The notes below the pieces were generated by a model. That model had not been told where the DNA came from. It did no database searches and was given only the letters and a program-made list of their open reading frames with translations. This document shows, in pieces, positions 42,238 through 56,316 of a DNA stretch of 64,000 nt (position 1 is the first letter of the stretch; each line of letters starts with the position of its first letter). Origin of the DNA: Fluviicola sp. (GTDB lineage: Bacteria > Bacteroidota > Bacteroidia > Flavobacteriales_D > Crocinitomicaceae); the NCBI RefSeq assembly GCF_029266855.1, contig NZ_JAQSWB010000001.1:124001-188000 (forward strand). Reading direction: 5' to 3'. Position numbers and translations under genes: made by a program.

Positions 42238-42307
42238 AAAACTAAATTTAGTAAAATTTTAGAAAGATGGTTCATAATTATCAAAATCAAAAATATTGCA
42301 GATTTAT

Positions 42308-42339
42308 TTTGATATGTCAGAATATTTTAAGAATCTTTG
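42308..42339 (+). promoter_or_regulatory. Promoter of the metX leader
   Basis: TTTG (42308-42311) and AATCTTTG (42332-42339) are 20 bases apart, close to the Bacteroidota consensus. A transcript would start near 42345, about 25 bases before the riboswitch. Confidence 0.45.
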
Positions 42340-42369
42340 TGGCGTAATTCTAAGCGAGAATACAAATAG

Positions 42370-42506
42370 TTTATACAGAAGAGGCGAGAGACGGACTTTT
42401 AGACCCTCTGGCAACCAACTTTAAGTTCTTCCGAATAGTTCGGGTGGATTGGAAAACCGGTGCCAACTTCCGAGTTTGATGCATTTTGCTATCAGACGAA
42501 TATAAA
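42370..42506 (+). ncRNA. SAM-I-like riboswitch upstream of metX
   Basis: The conserved core strings are present in order: GAAGAGGCGAGAGACGG near 42378, GGCAACC (42410-42416) and GGTGCCAA(C)TTCC (42459-42471). P1 can form from TTTATA (42370-42375) and TATAAA (42501-42506). P2 forms from AGAGG and CCTCT directly before GGCAACC. P3 has ACCAA/TTGG with an inner CCGAA-tag-TTCGG hairpin, and P4 can form around 42477-42497 (TGAT/ATCA). S-adenosylmethionine would stabilise P1. No intrinsic terminator follows. Instead the 33-codon leader ORF starts 10 bases after P1, so the output may be translation of that ORF. The location before metX-hom-metZ fits SAM control of methionine synthesis. Confidence 0.8.
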
Positions 42507-42515
42507 ATTGTGTTT

Positions 42516-42617
42516 ATGAAAAGTGCAAAAATTTCCTATCAAAACATCCAGCCTAAATCCAGGCTAAAAATTACTATTGATTTTACTTCAGATCGAATGT
42601 GTTGTTGTTGCTGTTAA
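42516..42617 (+). CDS. Leader peptide ending in five cysteines
   Basis: A 33-codon ORF starts MKSAKISYQNIQPK and ends with a Met codon, five consecutive Cys codons (TGT, TGT, TGT, TGC, TGT) and TAA. It lies between the SAM riboswitch (10 bases before) and metX (38 bases after). The Cys codons and the preceding Arg-Met codons form the 5' arm of an inverted repeat (42595-42605) whose 3' arm (42644-42654) ends one base before the metX ATG. This is the layout of a ribosome-stalling leader peptide: slow decoding of Cys codons would keep the metX start open. A short hairpin (AGCCT/AGGCT, 42550-42565) lies within the ORF. The role is inferred; the sequence features are seen directly. Confidence 0.75.
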   Translation: MKSAKISYQNIQPKSRLKITIDFTSDRMCCCCC

Positions 42618-42654
42618 TTGCTTCAGTTCAATAATTTCTCATTACAACACATTT
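42595..42654 (+). promoter_or_regulatory. Stem sequestering the metX start, formed with the Cys codons
   Basis: AATGTGTTGT (42596-42605) is the exact reverse complement of ACAACACATT (42644-42653), and G42595-T42654 adds a wobble pair. The loop is 38 bases. The 3' arm occupies the bases just before ATG 42656, where ribosomes bind. A ribosome paused on the Cys codons would cover the 5' arm and open the site. Confidence 0.7.
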
Positions 42655-42655
42655 C

Positions 42656-43711
42656 ATGTCAACAATTTATTCATCCCGTATTGACGGGAGGCTTTTGCAG
42701 CCATTACAACAGGTTTATTCTTCCCAATCCGAATTCTCTTTGGAATCAGGCGGGAAACTATCCGGTTTTTCCCTGGTTTATCAGACATGGGGGAATCTCA
42801 ATGAAGACAGATCGAATGTCGTTTGGGTTTGTCATGCTCTTACCGGAAATCACCGTGTCCAGGAATGGTGGGGTGGATTATTCGGTGAAGGTAAATGCTT
42901 TGACCCGGAAGATTATTTTATTGTGTCAGTAAATGTTCCCGGAAGTGCTTATGGTTCGACAGGGCCTTTAAGTGAAGAGCTATTACCCGAAGAACGGTTC
43001 GATGCGTTTCCGGTTCTCACGATCAGAGACATGGTTGCAGGCTTGGAACTGGTTCGAAAAGAACTCCGGATAGAACGGATCCATACCCTGATTGGTGCAT
43101 CTTTAGGTGGACAGCAAGTTTTAGAATGGGCTTTGTTGATCCCAGGTAAAATCGAACACATCATTCCAATTGCAACTAACCTGAAACATTCCCCGTTTGG
43201 AATCGCATTCAATGAAGCACAGCGAATGGCCATCCAGGCAGATCCGACTTTTTACGGTAAACAGGAAAGCGGGGGGAGGAACGGATTGAAAGCCGCCAGA
43301 GCAATCGGGATGTTGAGTTACCGAACGTACGAAGGTTATAAAATCACACAAAGCCAGGAAGACAATTCCGGTTTCGATGATTTCAAAGCAAGTTCCTATC
43401 AGCAATATCAGGGCGATAAATTAGCACACAGGTTCAATGCCTTCAGTTACTGGACTCTCTCGAAAGCAATGGACTCTCACAATGTATTCAGAAACAGGGA
43501 AGGGGAAGTCCTTGAACGCTGCCGGATGCCGGCTTTGGTTATTGGAATAGATTCCGATCTGTTATTTCCAATCTCAGAACAGGAAGAAATAAGTAAACAA
43601 TTGCCACATGCAATATTGATCAGTCTTCATTCCGAATTCGGTCATGACGGATTTTTAGTGGAAACAGAAACTCTCGCAAACCACATTAAACAATTTTTAA
43701 ACAAGAACTAA
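42656..43711 (+). CDS. metX: Homoserine O-acetyltransferase
   Basis: This enzyme acylates homoserine with acetyl-CoA, the first committed step to methionine. It is an alpha/beta hydrolase of 351 residues: VYQTWGNLNEDRSNVVWVCHALTGN (seen in parts: YQTWGN, CHALTGN), the nucleophile motif LIGASLGGQQVLEWA with the catalytic Ser, the RMAIQADP segment, and the Asp/His pair in GIDSDLLFP and EFGHDGFLVE. It is cytoplasmic. It is the first gene of metX-hom-osmC-metZ and is preceded by a SAM riboswitch and Cys-rich leader ORF. Hom begins 1 base after its stop. Confidence 0.93.
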   Translation: MSTIYSSRIDGRLLQPLQQVYSSQSEFSLESGGKLSGFSLVYQTWGNLNEDRSNVVWVCHALTGNHRVQEWWGGLFGEGKCFDPEDYFIVSVNVPGSAYGSTGPLSEELLPEERFDAFPVLTIRDMVAGLELVRKELRIERIHTLIGASLGGQQVLEWALLIPGKIEHIIPIATNLKHSPFGIAFNEAQRMAIQADPTFYGKQESGGRNGLKAARAIGMLSYRTYEGYKITQSQEDNSGFDDFKASSYQQYQGDKLAHRFNAFSYWTLSKAMDSHNVFRNREGEVLERCRMPALVIGIDSDLLFPISEQEEISKQLPHAILISLHSEFGHDGFLVETETLANHIKQFLNKN

Positions 43712-43712
43712 G

Positions 43713-44960
43713 ATGAAAAAACAACTCACAATAGGATTATTCGGTTTCGGATGTGTAGGAACCGGCTTGTATGAAGTATTAAACAGGACCACCCTGCTCC
43801 AGGCTTCGATCAAACACATTGTAATTAAAGACTTAAGCAAGAAACGAATCATTGATCCCGGTTATTTTAGTACAGATGCAGACCGCATTCTGAACGATAA
43901 GGAGATCAACGTTGTTGTGGAACTGATCAATGACTATGAGGCAGCCTATGCAATTGTAACACGCGCATTGAAAGCCGGGAAACATGTGGTTTCAGCGAAT
44001 AAAAAACTGATTGCATATTATTTGGATGAATTAGTTTCCCTGGCAAAAGAAAACAATGTTTCCTTCTTATACGAAGCTTCTGTTGGCGGTTCCATTCCGA
44101 TTATCCGGAACCTGGAAGAATATTATAACAACGATTCGCTTTCGAATATCAGCGGGATTGTAAATGGAACAACCAATTACATTCTTACAAAAACAGGGGA
44201 AGGTGAATCGTTTGATGAAGCCTTAAAGAATGCGCAGGAATTAGGTTTTGCAGAGCTGGATCCGACTTCAGATGTCGACGGCTTTGATGCGAAATACAAA
44301 TTGGTCCTGCTGTTAAAACATGCTTTTGGATTTACGGCGAAACAAGATGAGCTTTGGAATTACGGGATTCGTCAGTTGAAGGATTGGGATGCAACTTATG
44401 CACGTGAAAAAGGATTGAAGATCAAATTATTGGCTTACGGAACACGTATCAATAACCAGGTGATCGGTTTTGTGGCTCCTCATTTGATTCCGGCCAATCA
44501 TTTTGCATTTAATGTTGAAAATGAATTCAATGCAGTTGTGGTAGAAGCTTTATTTTCAGACAAGCAATTGTTTTTGGGAAAGGGAGCAGGAAGCCACCCG
44601 ACAGCCAGTGCTGTTCTTTCGGATATATCCGCTCTGCAATTTGACTACGCTTACGAATACAAAAAGTCGAAAACAGAGGAAGCACTGGCTTTTGAAAGTG
44701 ATTATTCCGTGAAAGTGTATTTGAGTGCAACTTCCCAGGAAAAACTGGATCAGGTTAGATTTATTGAAACACTCGAAACCTATTCAGGGCCATCTCACAG
44801 TTACAAAATAGGAATTATCCCCTATGAAGAGATCCGAAAGCAAGATTGGAACAATGAACCGGATTATTTCCTGGCCATCATTCCGGATAGTGTGGAGTTG
44901 ACAAAAGGTATTGAATTTAAGGAAACAGAATCAGCAGGATTAATAGAAGAATTGTCATGA
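43713..44960 (+). CDS. hom: Homoserine dehydrogenase
   Basis: This enzyme reduces aspartate semialdehyde to homoserine using NAD(P)H, supplying the substrate for MetX. The 415-residue protein has the nucleotide-binding motif GLFGFGCVGTGLYEVL. VSANKKLIAYYLDEL follows, then the catalytic domain with YEASVGGSIPIIRNLE, GIVNGTTNYILTK and DPTSDVDGFDAKYKL, with catalytic Lys and Asp/Glu. The last 90 residues could be a degenerate ACT-like region. Unlike many Bacteroidota there is no fusion to aspartate kinase in this copy, so it is probably dedicated to methionine. It overlaps osmC by 4 bases. Confidence 0.92.
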   Translation: MKKQLTIGLFGFGCVGTGLYEVLNRTTLLQASIKHIVIKDLSKKRIIDPGYFSTDADRILNDKEINVVVELINDYEAAYAIVTRALKAGKHVVSANKKLIAYYLDELVSLAKENNVSFLYEASVGGSIPIIRNLEEYYNNDSLSNISGIVNGTTNYILTKTGEGESFDEALKNAQELGFAELDPTSDVDGFDAKYKLVLLLKHAFGFTAKQDELWNYGIRQLKDWDATYAREKGLKIKLLAYGTRINNQVIGFVAPHLIPANHFAFNVENEFNAVVVEALFSDKQLFLGKGAGSHPTASAVLSDISALQFDYAYEYKKSKTEEALAFESDYSVKVYLSATSQEKLDQVRFIETLETYSGPSHSYKIGIIPYEEIRKQDWNNEPDYFLAIIPDSVELTKGIEFKETESAGLIEELS

Positions 44961-45370
44961 AGTTAGATCTCAAATTAATAGAATCGCCCTTTGTTTTAGA
45001 GGTAAGAAACGAATCAGGAATTTCAATTAAGATTGATGCTACTGAAAAGATCGGTGGAAAAAACAAGGGAATGAGACCGATGGAACTTTTAGCTTCCTCA
45101 CTTGCTGGCTGCATGTCTATTGATATTTTACTGATATTACAGAAACAGCGTCAGGAAGTCACCTTTTACGAAGTGACGATTGATGCGAATAGGAAAGATG
45201 CTGTTCCGGCAGTATTCGAATCAATTTACCTGGTATTTTCTTTCAACAGGGAAGTGGACTTAGAGAAAGCTGAGGCAGCGGTTAAGTTAAGTCATGAAAA
45301 GTATTGTTCGGTTTCTGCCTCCCTGAATCCGCAAATTAGTATCCAAACAGAAGTCAAGTATCAATCATGA
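44957..45370 (+). CDS. OsmC family thiol peroxidase-like protein
   Basis: The 137-residue protein has the two redox Cys typical of OsmC/Ohr: one in ASSLAGCMSIDIL and one in HEKYCSVSASL, with MRPMELLASSLAGC at the start of the central helix. OsmC proteins reduce organic hydroperoxides with dithiol partners. Some OsmC-like proteins sit in sulfur gene clusters. Its place between hom and metZ, with 4-base overlaps on both sides, argues for a role in handling reactive sulfur or oxidised thiols during sulfhydrylation. That role is inference. Confidence 0.85.
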   Translation: MKLDLKLIESPFVLEVRNESGISIKIDATEKIGGKNKGMRPMELLASSLAGCMSIDILLILQKQRQEVTFYEVTIDANRKDAVPAVFESIYLVFSFNREVDLEKAEAAVKLSHEKYCSVSASLNPQISIQTEVKYQS

Positions 45371-46533
45371 AGAATTACAGAAACGAAACCCTTGCCATCC
45401 GTATTCAAAACGAGCGCTCACAAGAAGCAGAGCACAGTGTTCCTTTGTACCTGACATCCAGTTATGTGTTTGATGATGCAGAGCAAATGCGGGCTGCCTT
45501 TTCAGATGAGATAGAGGCCAATATTTACTCCCGCTATTCCAATCCGAATGTGGATGAATTGCTTGAAAAAGTATCCGTGCTGGAAGGGGGAGAAGCTGCA
45601 TGGGCTACGGCAACCGGAATGGCAGCTGTTTTTACGACTTTTGCTGCATTGCTTCAGAGTGGGGATCACATTGTTTCGTCCAAATCCGTTTTTGGCTCTA
45701 CTCACCAGTTATTTGTCAACATCCTTCCGAAATGGGGAATTACGACGACCTACGTGGATGCCATTGATTACGATGCTTATGAGCAGGAAATTAAACCGGA
45801 AACGAAAATTGTTTATATCGAAACACCATCCAATCCAGGATTGGATATCATCGACATCAAACGGTTGGCTGAGATCTGTAAAGCTAAGAATGTACTCCTG
45901 GTAGTTGACAATTGTTTTGCAACTCCGGTTTTACAGCAGCCACTGAAACTTGGGGCAGACATTGTAATTCACTCTGCAACCAAATACATGGATGGCCAGG
46001 GAAGGGTTTTGGGAGGATTGATCGTCTCGACAAAAGAAACGATTGCGAAAATCCAGGGCTTTGCACGACACAGTGGTCCGGCTTTATCACCTTTCAATGC
46101 CTGGATTCTTTCCAAATCACTTGAAACACTGCACCTGAGAATGGAAAAACATTGTTCTCAAGCTTTTGAAATTGCAAAACGACTGGAGGCAAATGACGAG
46201 GTTTCATGGGTGAAATACCCGTTCCTGGGTTCACATCCGCAGCACGATATTGCCCGGGATCAAATGAAATATGGAGGTGGAATTGTGACTTTTCAGATCA
46301 AGGGAGGATTGGAGGCAGGACGCAAATTCCTGGACCGCTTGAATTTATTTTCTCTTACTCCCAATCTGGGCGATAGCAGGAGTATAGCGACACATCCGGC
46401 ATCCACCACACACAGCAAGTTGAAACCTGAAGAACGGGAAGCAGTTGGTATTTCGGATGGATTGGTACGATTGAGCATCGGTTTGGAACATATTGAGGAT
46501 ATTTGGGAAGATATCGAACAAGCGCTTTTATAA
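45367..46533 (+). CDS. metZ: O-acylhomoserine sulfhydrylase / trans-sulfuration PLP enzyme
   Basis: The 388-residue enzyme belongs to the Cys/Met metabolism PLP family. It has YSRYSNPNVDELLEKVSVLEGGE (seen as SRYSNPN), ATGMAAVFTTF, YIETPSNPGLDI, VVDNCFATPVLQQPL (Asp that binds PLP nitrogen) and HSATKYMDGQGRVLGG with the Schiff-base Lys. The DGQGR context fits MetZ-type sulfhydrylases, which make homocysteine directly from sulfide and O-acylhomoserine; with MetX upstream the substrate would be O-acetylhomoserine. A cystathionine gamma-synthase role cannot be excluded. It ends in TAA, which begins the repeat region 46531-47063. Confidence 0.88.
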   Translation: MKNYRNETLAIRIQNERSQEAEHSVPLYLTSSYVFDDAEQMRAAFSDEIEANIYSRYSNPNVDELLEKVSVLEGGEAAWATATGMAAVFTTFAALLQSGDHIVSSKSVFGSTHQLFVNILPKWGITTTYVDAIDYDAYEQEIKPETKIVYIETPSNPGLDIIDIKRLAEICKAKNVLLVVDNCFATPVLQQPLKLGADIVIHSATKYMDGQGRVLGGLIVSTKETIAKIQGFARHSGPALSPFNAWILSKSLETLHLRMEKHCSQAFEIAKRLEANDEVSWVKYPFLGSHPQHDIARDQMKYGGGIVTFQIKGGLEAGRKFLDRLNLFSLTPNLGDSRSIATHPASTTHSKLKPEEREAVGISDGLVRLSIGLEHIEDIWEDIEQALL

Positions 46534-54954: not shown

Positions 54955-56316
54955 ATGAAAATTTATAACAATATATTGGAAACCATAGGCAACACTCCTT
55001 TGGTTAGATTAAACAAGCTCACTAAAAATTGTAAAGCTACTGTTTTAGCGAAAGTTGAAACAACAAATCCGGGGAATTCAGTAAAAGACCGGATGGCGGT
55101 AAAAATGATCGAAGATGCTGAGAAATCAGGACTTTTGAAGCCGGGTGGAACAATCATTGAAGGAACTTCGGGAAATACCGGAATGGGCTTGGCTTTGGTT
55201 GCAATTATTAAAGGATATAAACTGATTTGTGTATTGAATGACAAACAGTCGAAAGAAAAGATGGATATTTTACGTGCTGTAGGAGCTGAAGTTGTGGTTT
55301 GTCCGACAGCTGTTGAACCAACAGATCCCCGTTCTTATTATTCCGTTTCAAAAAGACTGGCAAAAGAAATTCCGAATTCCTGGTATGTAAACCAATACGA
55401 TAACTTATCGAACAGGATTGCTCATTACGAACAAACCGGCCCGGAGATTTGGGAACAAACGGATGGAAAAGTAACGCATTTTATCGTTGGAGTAGGAACA
55501 GGAGGAACGATCTCAGGGGTTGGAAAATACCTGAAAGAGAAAAATCCGGATATTAAAATCTGGGGAGTCGATACTTACGGTTCTGTTTTCAAAAAATACA
55601 AGGAAACCGGAGTTTTCGATGAAAATGAAATTTATCCTTACATCACGGAAGGAATCGGGGAAGATATTCTTCCTGCGAACGTGGATTTTGATGTGATCGA
55701 TTTGTTTGAAAAAGTAACAGATAAAGATGCAGCTGTTTATACACGCCGTTTGGCTCGTGAAGAGGGAATTTTTGTAGGGAATTCTGCGGGTGCAGCAATC
55801 GCCGGATTATTACAGTTGCAGGATCAACTGACAGAAAAGGATGTGGTAGTTGTCTTGTTCCACGATCATGGAAGCCGCTATGTTGGTAAAATCTTCAATG
55901 ACGACTGGATGCGTGAGCGCGGATTCCTGGAAGAAGAATTTAAAACTGCAGAAGATGTGATTGCACGTCATGCTGACTTGCCATTGGTAACCTTGTATTC
56001 GGAAGAGCTGGTTTCACATGCCATTATGAAAATGCGCAAATACAACATTTCTCAAATCCCGGTTCTAAGAGACGGTGAGTTGGTAGGTTCCTTAAACGAT
56101 TCCCAGGTTTACCAGTTATTGGTTGACAATCCTGCATTGAGAGATACCCCGATTTCAAAGATCATGCAAAAACCTTTCCCGGTTGTTCTTGGAACAGCGA
56201 AACTGGAAGAGGTGGCTAAACTGATCAATGAGCAAACGCCGGCAGTTATTGTTGAGCGCGCAAACGGGGATAAGAAGATCTTGACACGCCAGGATGTAAT
56301 TGCTTCTTTGGCTTAG
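54955..56316 (+). CDS. Cystathionine beta-synthase with CBS domain pair
   Basis: The 453-residue PLP enzyme is built like human CBS without haem. The catalytic part (1-320) has NILETIGNTPLVRLNKL, NPGNSVKDRMAVKM with the Schiff-base Lys, EGTSGNTGMGLAL, the GVGTGGTISGVGKYL phosphate loop and GNSAGAAIAGLLQL. Two CBS domains (about 335-450: HAIMKMRKYNISQIPVLRDGELVGSL, PISKIMQKPFPVVLG) follow and may bind an adenosyl ligand such as SAM. It condenses serine with homocysteine (or sulfide). With MetX/MetZ in the window, both directions of trans-sulfuration may operate. Start ATG 54955 follows a -7 box. O-acetylserine sulfhydrylase activity cannot be excluded. Confidence 0.9.
   Translation: MKIYNNILETIGNTPLVRLNKLTKNCKATVLAKVETTNPGNSVKDRMAVKMIEDAEKSGLLKPGGTIIEGTSGNTGMGLALVAIIKGYKLICVLNDKQSKEKMDILRAVGAEVVVCPTAVEPTDPRSYYSVSKRLAKEIPNSWYVNQYDNLSNRIAHYEQTGPEIWEQTDGKVTHFIVGVGTGGTISGVGKYLKEKNPDIKIWGVDTYGSVFKKYKETGVFDENEIYPYITEGIGEDILPANVDFDVIDLFEKVTDKDAAVYTRRLAREEGIFVGNSAGAAIAGLLQLQDQLTEKDVVVVLFHDHGSRYVGKIFNDDWMRERGFLEEEFKTAEDVIARHADLPLVTLYSEELVSHAIMKMRKYNISQIPVLRDGELVGSLNDSQVYQLLVDNPALRDTPISKIMQKPFPVVLGTAKLEEVAKLINEQTPAVIVERANGDKKILTRQDVIASLA

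Follow-up and report, generated by a model that had tools for sequence, protein, structure and literature searches.

How might a single gene be made to answer to two products of the pathways that it feeds? The leader of metX, encoding homoserine O-acetyltransferase, raises this question in a 64,000-nucleotide stretch of Fluviicola sp. DNA (hereafter the window; RefSeq assembly GCF_029266855.1, contig NZ_JAQSWB010000001.1, positions 124,001 to 188,000 of the forward strand). Between an S-adenosylmethionine (SAM) riboswitch and the metX start lies a short upstream open reading frame (uORF) that ends in a run of Cys codons, and a preliminary description of the locus had proposed that these parts act together as a switch with two inputs. 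We consider it probable that the leader is such a device: a two-step RNA switch in which a SAM-gated leader-peptide attenuator would control metX translation, reading SAM and Cys in series. Fluviicola belongs to Crocinitomicaceae, as in the GTDB lineage given for the assembly, and we compared the leader with those of its relatives in the genus, the family and the order.

All parts of the leader lie on the plus strand and are numbered by window position. The first is a SAM-I (S-box) aptamer (42368–42508), which matched Rfam family RF00162 over its full length (1–108) with 47.1 bits against a gathering threshold of 44.4, confirming the aptamer that had been read from its motifs; its P1 arms lie at about 42368–42375 and 42501–42508. 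The uORF follows (33 codons, 42516–42617, ATG at 42516, TAA at 42617), encoding the peptide MKSAKISYQNIQPKSRLKITIDFTSDRMCCCCC with the ending Met-Cys5-stop (MCCCCC*), as described; the listing of open reading frames has the same frame starting from an upstream TTG. The ATG had been placed 10 bases after P1 on the basis of a shorter P1, and the Rfam P1 end at 42508 shortens this spacer to 7 nt (42509–42515). The five Cys codons (TGT TGT TGT TGC TGT, 42600–42614) form the proposed stall site. They overlap the 5′ arm of a predicted sequestering stem, GAAUGUGUUGU (42595–42605), built from Arg-Met-Cys-Cys codons, whose 3′ arm, ACAACACAUUU (42644–42654), lies just 5′ of metX. This stem is present where it had been reported; it has 11 bp, one of them G-U, and ends one base 5′ of the metX ATG at 42656, which is 38 nt from the uORF stop. 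The host genome (G000) carries a second SAM-I element (L001, G000:C2:67773-67898), directly 5′ of a metH-like gene and with no uORF.

The leader differs from several familiar arrangements. RF00162, with one match, is the only Rfam family at its gathering threshold in the window, and thus no T-box element was found there. The uORF does not appear to be leaderless in the sense of an AUG at or near the mRNA 5′ end, since a full aptamer precedes the uORF. A consensus scan of the plus strand from 42240 to 42760 found no intrinsic terminator-like site, which sets the locus apart from Trp-type attenuators. This last result would also suit termination by Rho, which might cut off a vacated or untranslated leader and be kept away by a stalled ribosome, either together with the stem or in its place where it is absent. 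In the excerpts of the sources, a riboswitch–uORF–Rho route is described for the Mycobacterium tuberculosis Mbox (PMC12810186), and Rho has been proposed for Cys leaders in Actinobacteria (PMC1262725). We nevertheless regard Rho as an unlikely basis for control of this operon, because a stem that reaches the metX start is better explained by translational control.

The Cys run of the window is by itself no evidence, because runs of five TGY codons are not rare in these genomes (the 15-nt pattern has 9 matches in G000). Across relatives, the run lies far beyond chance. We found metX in 12 of the 14 genomes of the genus, and all 12 leaders have a SAM core followed by an ATG-initiated uORF ending in 3–6 Cys codons, with a single Arg codon between the Cys codons and the stop in two of them (L036 and L038). 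Family-wide, metX was matched 88 times (E <= 1e-40) in 87 of 240 genomes. Three leaders were unreadable and were left out (L198, with 26 bases, and L136 and L180, at contig ends). The 85 that remained comprise 58 with SAM-I and a uORF (56 found by motif, L125 and L128 by Rfam), 14 with SAM-I directly 5′ of metX, one with another SAM-I arrangement (L185) and 12 with no SAM-I by motif or Rfam. Rfam matched SAM-I in L125, L128 and 37 of the 38 leaders tested from the set of 56, missing L034. Among these 56 uORFs, Cys makes up 31.5% of the last 14 codons and 1.0% of the bodies, and Met 12.1% and 0.4%; at least three tail Cys codons occur in 48 and at least two in 53. The conservation on which the preliminary description had staked its case was therefore found. 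Beyond the Cys that it had stressed, the tails also hold Met.

These comparisons bear on whether the peptide-coding sense of the run matters. If the TGY run were kept merely as an RNA stem arm, with the open reading frame incidental, its overlap with the 5′ arm in the genus would be accounted for, as would the Cys that appears when the tails are read in frame +1 (1.62 per tail). The true frame, at 4.41 Cys per tail, is the highest of the three (the last has 0.23). TGT and TGC are used about equally (133 and 114 tail codons), and therefore it is the residue, not the codon, that is kept. The run also persists where no stem response is predicted, and the ATG follows P1 at near-constant spacing. 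We find the stem-arm explanation hardly credible. A second possibility is that the peptide itself acts, for example by metal binding or by stalling through its own sequence, independently of Cys-tRNA supply. Cys-rich ends could bind metals; however, uORF bodies are unlike between genera (by eye), as is the order of tail residues beyond richness in Cys and Met, and Cys-poor tails accompany cysE, so that we judge a peptide-borne activity very improbable. The feature is real: it spans the family, and selection acts on its Cys (and Met) codons. In three leaders (L157, L176 and L179) the uORF is kept with at most one tail Cys, and Met is retained.

Among the loci compared, the design appears confined to one family. 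A motif search of 18 metX loci from elsewhere in the order gave no Cys uORF, L218 among them being too short to tell, and one of these non-family loci, L217, has a SAM core confirmed by Rfam; relative to this set, the design was found in Crocinitomicaceae only. In three genomes from other families of the order (G245:C2, G381:C24 and G253:C1), metX lies in open frames of 1136, 1136 and 684 codons, which are possibly fusions. Within the family, we looked at 31 other SAM-I loci (L001 and L003–L032), namely the 30 best-scoring and the metH one (L001) rather than a sample of all, and none has a Cys uORF; by eye, 29 lie directly 5′ of a metH-like gene, L022 is cut short by the end of its contig and L008 precedes a cystathionine-synthase-like gene. 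A search of the genus for further poly-Cys leaders used the 15-nt TGY pattern, which has many matches and a sizeable background. Of 30 loci examined, three were metX leaders (L240, L247 and L264) and the other 27 lay across open frames of at least 100 codons, so that no further leader was accepted; short Cys-run frames at such loci (for example, L239 and L260) run against or across those long frames.

The position of the aptamer suggests what it controls. Among the 37 loci with an Rfam match of the 38 tested, the P1 end lies 5–12 nt (median 8) from the uORF ATG; by the same measure, three leaders that lack a uORF have 8, 8 and 11 nt between P1 and the metX ATG. A cruder measure agrees, with 40–54 nt from the SAM core to the uORF ATG in 55 of 56 loci (27 in the other) and 43–50 nt from the core to the metX ATG in the 14 direct leaders. 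The spacings match, so the riboswitch stands in the same relation to whichever start follows it, that of metX or that of the uORF. From this geometry we infer that SAM-I acts on the uORF, and that leaders in which SAM-I directly precedes metX represent a natural swap of its target; both the spacing and the swap support the earlier suggestion that SAM might govern translation of the leader peptide itself.

Next to this stands the pairing between the uORF tail and the metX start. We folded the last 75 nt of each uORF against the metX region from −25 to +15 in 51 loci, with partners permuted among loci; the set omits L182, L191, L193, L194 and L197, in which the metX start was uncertain or the gap long. 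The true duplexes have a mean energy of −13.16 kcal/mol, compared with −10.50 (s.d. 0.38) for permuted ones, and 0 of 2000 permutations were as low. The difference remained when the window's genus was removed (−12.61 versus −10.25, s.d. 0.43; 0 of 2000; 39 loci), and when each of 10 genera was represented by a single randomly drawn locus the median p was 0.002. Measured against shuffles of the start region, p was <= 0.05 in 19 of the 51 loci, the window's own not being among them. Tail and start thus co-vary between loci and genera, as the earlier proposal of a conserved stem required. Individual loci illustrate this: L041 has an 11-bp stem of unrelated sequence in the same place (UUUUCAAUGAU/AUCAUUGAAAA), L184 has CAUUUUAAUUGUU/AACAAUUAAAAUG, and L183 has a long stem of yet other sequence. 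Every stem cell that was counted is paired in the eight Fluviicola loci closest to the window. A separate hairpin within the uORF (AGCCU/AGGCU, 42550–42565) shows compensatory changes in the genus: over eight sequences, 5 of 6 pairs have two-sided changes, 87.5% of cells are paired and 12 cells are two-sided, a number reached by 0 of 500 shuffles, although the pair count was reached by 47 of 500. L037 pairs this hairpin one base out of register. A family-wide test of such a hairpin gave a mean z of −0.66, with 11 of 56 values below −1.5, and we therefore claim it for the genus only.

The distance between the uORF stop and metX bears on translational coupling, in which ribosomes ending the uORF would restart at metX. 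SAM would then lower metX by closing the uORF, and starvation for Cys would lower it too, a sign opposite to that of the favoured model. Within the genus, 11 of 12 loci have the stop 38–54 nt from metX and L043 has it at 66 nt; the g17 distances are 31 and 38 nt. Such a route could accommodate these values; in loci of the remaining genera the stop lies 60–95 nt away, long for reinitiation, in 40 of 42 and 127 and 238 nt away in the remaining two. Coupling also leaves the co-varying stem unexplained, together with the tendency of the Cys codons to go with genomes that seem to need metX for Cys. Termination–reinitiation after a riboswitch-controlled uORF does have a precedent in M. tuberculosis ppe2 in the excerpted account (PMC11260477). 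On balance, we think it quite doubtful that coupling drives metX.

To describe the effect of a stalled ribosome, we modelled a ribosome whose A site holds the second Cys codon, blocking a footprint of 32 nt. This was done for 48 loci, leaving out the five excluded from the duplex test and three whose tails have at most one Cys codon. In the window, opening the metX start costs 5.7 kcal/mol without the modelled stall and 2.6 kcal/mol with it, and a footprint placed upstream left the cost at 5.7; over the 48 loci, the median cost fell from 5.1 to 2.7 kcal/mol. An upstream control footprint could be placed in 37 loci and opened the start by at least 1 kcal/mol in 3 of them. For a structure whose formation would depend on ribosome position, the leader offers the stem and its covariation, with a modelled effect in 22 of 48 loci and no competing alternative stem identified.

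Why should Cys control metX at all? In the host genome, no CysE scored above its curated cut-off (best 75.7 bits, cut-off 210.65), and two PALP-family genes alone were found (E <= 0.001), a cystathionine beta-synthase-like gene at 54955–56316 and an ACC-deaminase-like one. There are two full-length PF01053 genes, metZ and another, and the enzyme encoded by the second may work as a gamma-lyase. Host Cys would then most likely come from homocysteine, downstream of MetX, which would provide a reason for Cys control of metX. A count of two PALP-family genes also means that threonine synthase, threonine dehydratase and tryptophan synthase beta of that fold may be missing.

Gene content across the family is consistent with this link. 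Of the 87 metX genomes, 80 were searched for cysE and cysK, and 27 had a match to TIGR01172 at E <= 1e-25. The 24 matches of 158–183 bits were counted as cysE, though below the curated cut-off, because 23 of them adjoin a cysK-like gene without CBS domains (in the other, G123, the match lies near a contig end); three of 103–115 bits (G007, G012 and G049) were counted as lacking it. By this count, cysE is present in the genomes of 7 of 47 Cys-rich leaders, 5 of the 8 whose tails hold no more than two Cys codons, 8 of 12 direct SAM-I leaders, the one other SAM leader and 3 of 12 loci without SAM-I; absence of cysE in draft genomes may reflect incompleteness. Cys-rich leaders go with cysE less often than do all other SAM leaders (7 of 47 against 14 of 21; p 4.2e-5 by Fisher's test, uncorrected for relatedness). 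Among the decayed tails of g22, the genomes of L157 and L176 have cysE and that of L179 does not.

Together, these data suggest the following sequence of events. When SAM is plentiful, the aptamer would close P1, placing its 3′ strand 7 nt before the uORF ATG, and the uORF would not be started, as the spacing and the swap suggest; its untranslated tail would pair with the bases before metX and keep the gene off. When SAM is low the uORF would be translated, and the outcome would depend on a second step, for which the tail, the stem and its covariation argue. With enough Cys-tRNA, the ribosome would pass the Cys run and leave, the stem would re-form and metX expression would be low; with scarce Cys-tRNA (and perhaps Met-tRNA in many relatives), a stalled ribosome would cover the 5′ arm, leaving the metX start open and expression high. 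The rationale would be that MetX lies upstream of Met and SAM and, through the cystathionine beta-synthase-like enzyme and one of the gamma-synthase/lyase family, of Cys. We lean, with less assurance, towards a broader generalization: that across Crocinitomicaceae SAM-I gates a peptide that counts Cys and Met, that metX is on only when SAM and Cys-tRNA are both low, that the module is gained or lost by an AUG about 8 nt behind P1, and that its Cys codons decay in genomes with a CysE/CysK route of their own.

Several observations pull the other way. The aptamer of the window scores low relative to the metX-leader set. Its stem is unexceptional when taken alone (z −1.44; matched by 20 of 200 dinucleotide shuffles), and therefore its reality rests on conservation; in the eight closest loci, 8 of the 10 counted pairs are invariant, two show G-C/G-U changes and none has a two-sided change; it is thus the more distant loci that carry the covariation. 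Because the duplex test took in the last 75 nt of the uORF, the segment that pairs is, in some loci, well 5′ of the Cys run. The modelled stall opened the metX start by at least 1 kcal/mol in only 22 of 48 loci, so that the stem, as the earlier account had used it, leaves about half of the modelled relatives unexplained; there was little effect in g16, g7, g12 and g21, in most of g4, in about half of g22 and, within the genus, in L042 and L043, where the output must differ or else escapes these energies. Placing the modelled ribosome at the stop codon opens the window stem too (3.8 versus 2.6 kcal/mol under the stall), which would make the response a matter of dwell time. On the side of Cys supply, the beta-synthase-like protein scores below its curated cut-off and has similarity to cysteine synthases as well, again below theirs, and the second PF01053 gene is best matched by a model for cystathionine gamma-synthase (532.6 bits, cut-off 513) rather than gamma-lyase (495.9 bits, cut-off 594). 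The seven Cys-rich leaders with cysE run counter to the proposed link, three of them from g4, which breaks the rule, and the Fisher test treats related genomes as independent. Finally, 9 of the 12 metX loci without SAM-I have neither leader nor cysE.

How far is such a design already known? The MgtL leader peptide, in the Mg-responsive mgtA leader, similarly joins codons to a sensing leader RNA, with Mg and proline as its signals. Poly-Cys leaderless short ORFs precede mycobacterial operons (Canestrari et al. 2020, as cited in PMC9031893 and PMC13236596), and Cys-run leaders have been predicted in Actinobacteria (PMC1262725); these and the papers below are drawn on here through excerpts. The mycobacterial ORFs resemble the present one in being short, with contiguous Cys codons near the stop, a run also found here, and in their association with sulfur amino-acid genes and translational Cys attenuation. 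They are leaderless, and the excerpts mention no aptamer, whereas here SAM-I comes first, the target is metX, Met codons take part and the host is a member of Bacteroidota. The Rhodobacterales uORFC-8-2, upstream of cysS, likewise has tandem Cys codons within a stem and a proposed ribosome-mediated attenuation, but its stem is terminator-like, its target is cysS and no SAM aptamer is mentioned in the excerpt (PMC8632094). The M. tuberculosis B12 riboswitch/uPPE2 and Mbox/rv1805A pairs are alike in that the first target is a small uORF, which for ppe2 then governs the main gene (PMC11260477, PMC12810186); they differ in their ligands and, in the text excerpted, are not described as amino-acid sensors.

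Two other systems combine signals differently. In Clostridium acetobutylicum, ubiGmccBA brings an S-box and a Cys T-box to bear on one sulfur operon, but through a T-box and an antisense RNA, with the S-box on the antisense transcript rather than in series on the mRNA (PMC2940859). The Xanthomonas met SAM-I riboswitch acts on translation and binds uncharged initiator tRNA; there the tRNA contacts the expression platform directly, and the excerpt mentions no leader peptide (PMC7270179). Leader-peptide candidates in general have been noted in transcriptomes of Flavobacterium psychrophilum and Bacteroides thetaiotaomicron, according to excerpts of those studies (PMC9723704, PMC7366714). In the open-licence PMC literature, we found no description of a SAM riboswitch and a Cys leader in series. 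The preliminary description's statement that no system of this form is known thus seems to hold for the serial design and not for its parts, each half being known elsewhere.

If this proposal is correct, two end products of a branched pathway would be read in series by an aptamer and a codon-counting ribosome, forming a natural logic gate free of protein. The relatives offer ready controls, with leaders that have or lack the uORF and carry many Cys codons or few, the number tending to be high in genomes with no other Cys route and low in those that have one, so that gate logic, leader evolution and sulfur physiology could be tested together. To our knowledge, the biology of attenuation in Bacteroidota has been little studied.

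The genes behind the leader all lie on the plus strand. The metX gene (42656–43711) has TIGR01392 as its best NCBIfam match (323 bits, below the cut-off of 500), and its closest five named records, 79–82% identical, are two from Fluviicola, two metagenome-assembled genomes (MAGs) of Flavobacteriales and one titled Glaciecola. A record titled Glaciecola amylolytica (L046, CP034120.1) has a Fluviicola-like metX (81% identical) with the same kind of Cys leader, and its label looks doubtful. A homoserine dehydrogenase gene follows metX (43713–44960; NF004976, 342 bits, cut-off 205; PF00742 and PF03447), then a gene for an OsmC-family protein (44957–45370; PF02566) and one for a metZ-type homoserine-ester sulfhydrylase (45367–46533; NF006003, 536 bits, cut-off 522; model name O-succinylhomoserine sulfhydrylase). 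The cystathionine beta-synthase-like gene, outside this cluster and noted as context, carries a CBS domain (54955–56316; TIGR01137, 490.7 bits, cut-off 510.25; PF00291 and PF00571).

Short ORFs were also observed in other metX leaders. In Dyadobacter (L055, L057, L059–L062, L069, L073, L074, L076, L086 and L090), SAM-I is followed, about 75 nt after GGTGC, by a short ORF whose start, MAL(I/F)S, is conserved, with no Cys run; the Rfam SAM match was checked for L055. Either a leader peptide of another kind or a conserved RNA element could account for this ORF. Two Spirosoma metX leaders (L091 and L106) have short ORFs after the SAM-I core, MLYIRCCMPLGAS and MFCNQRCMPIGAY, which are alike in form.

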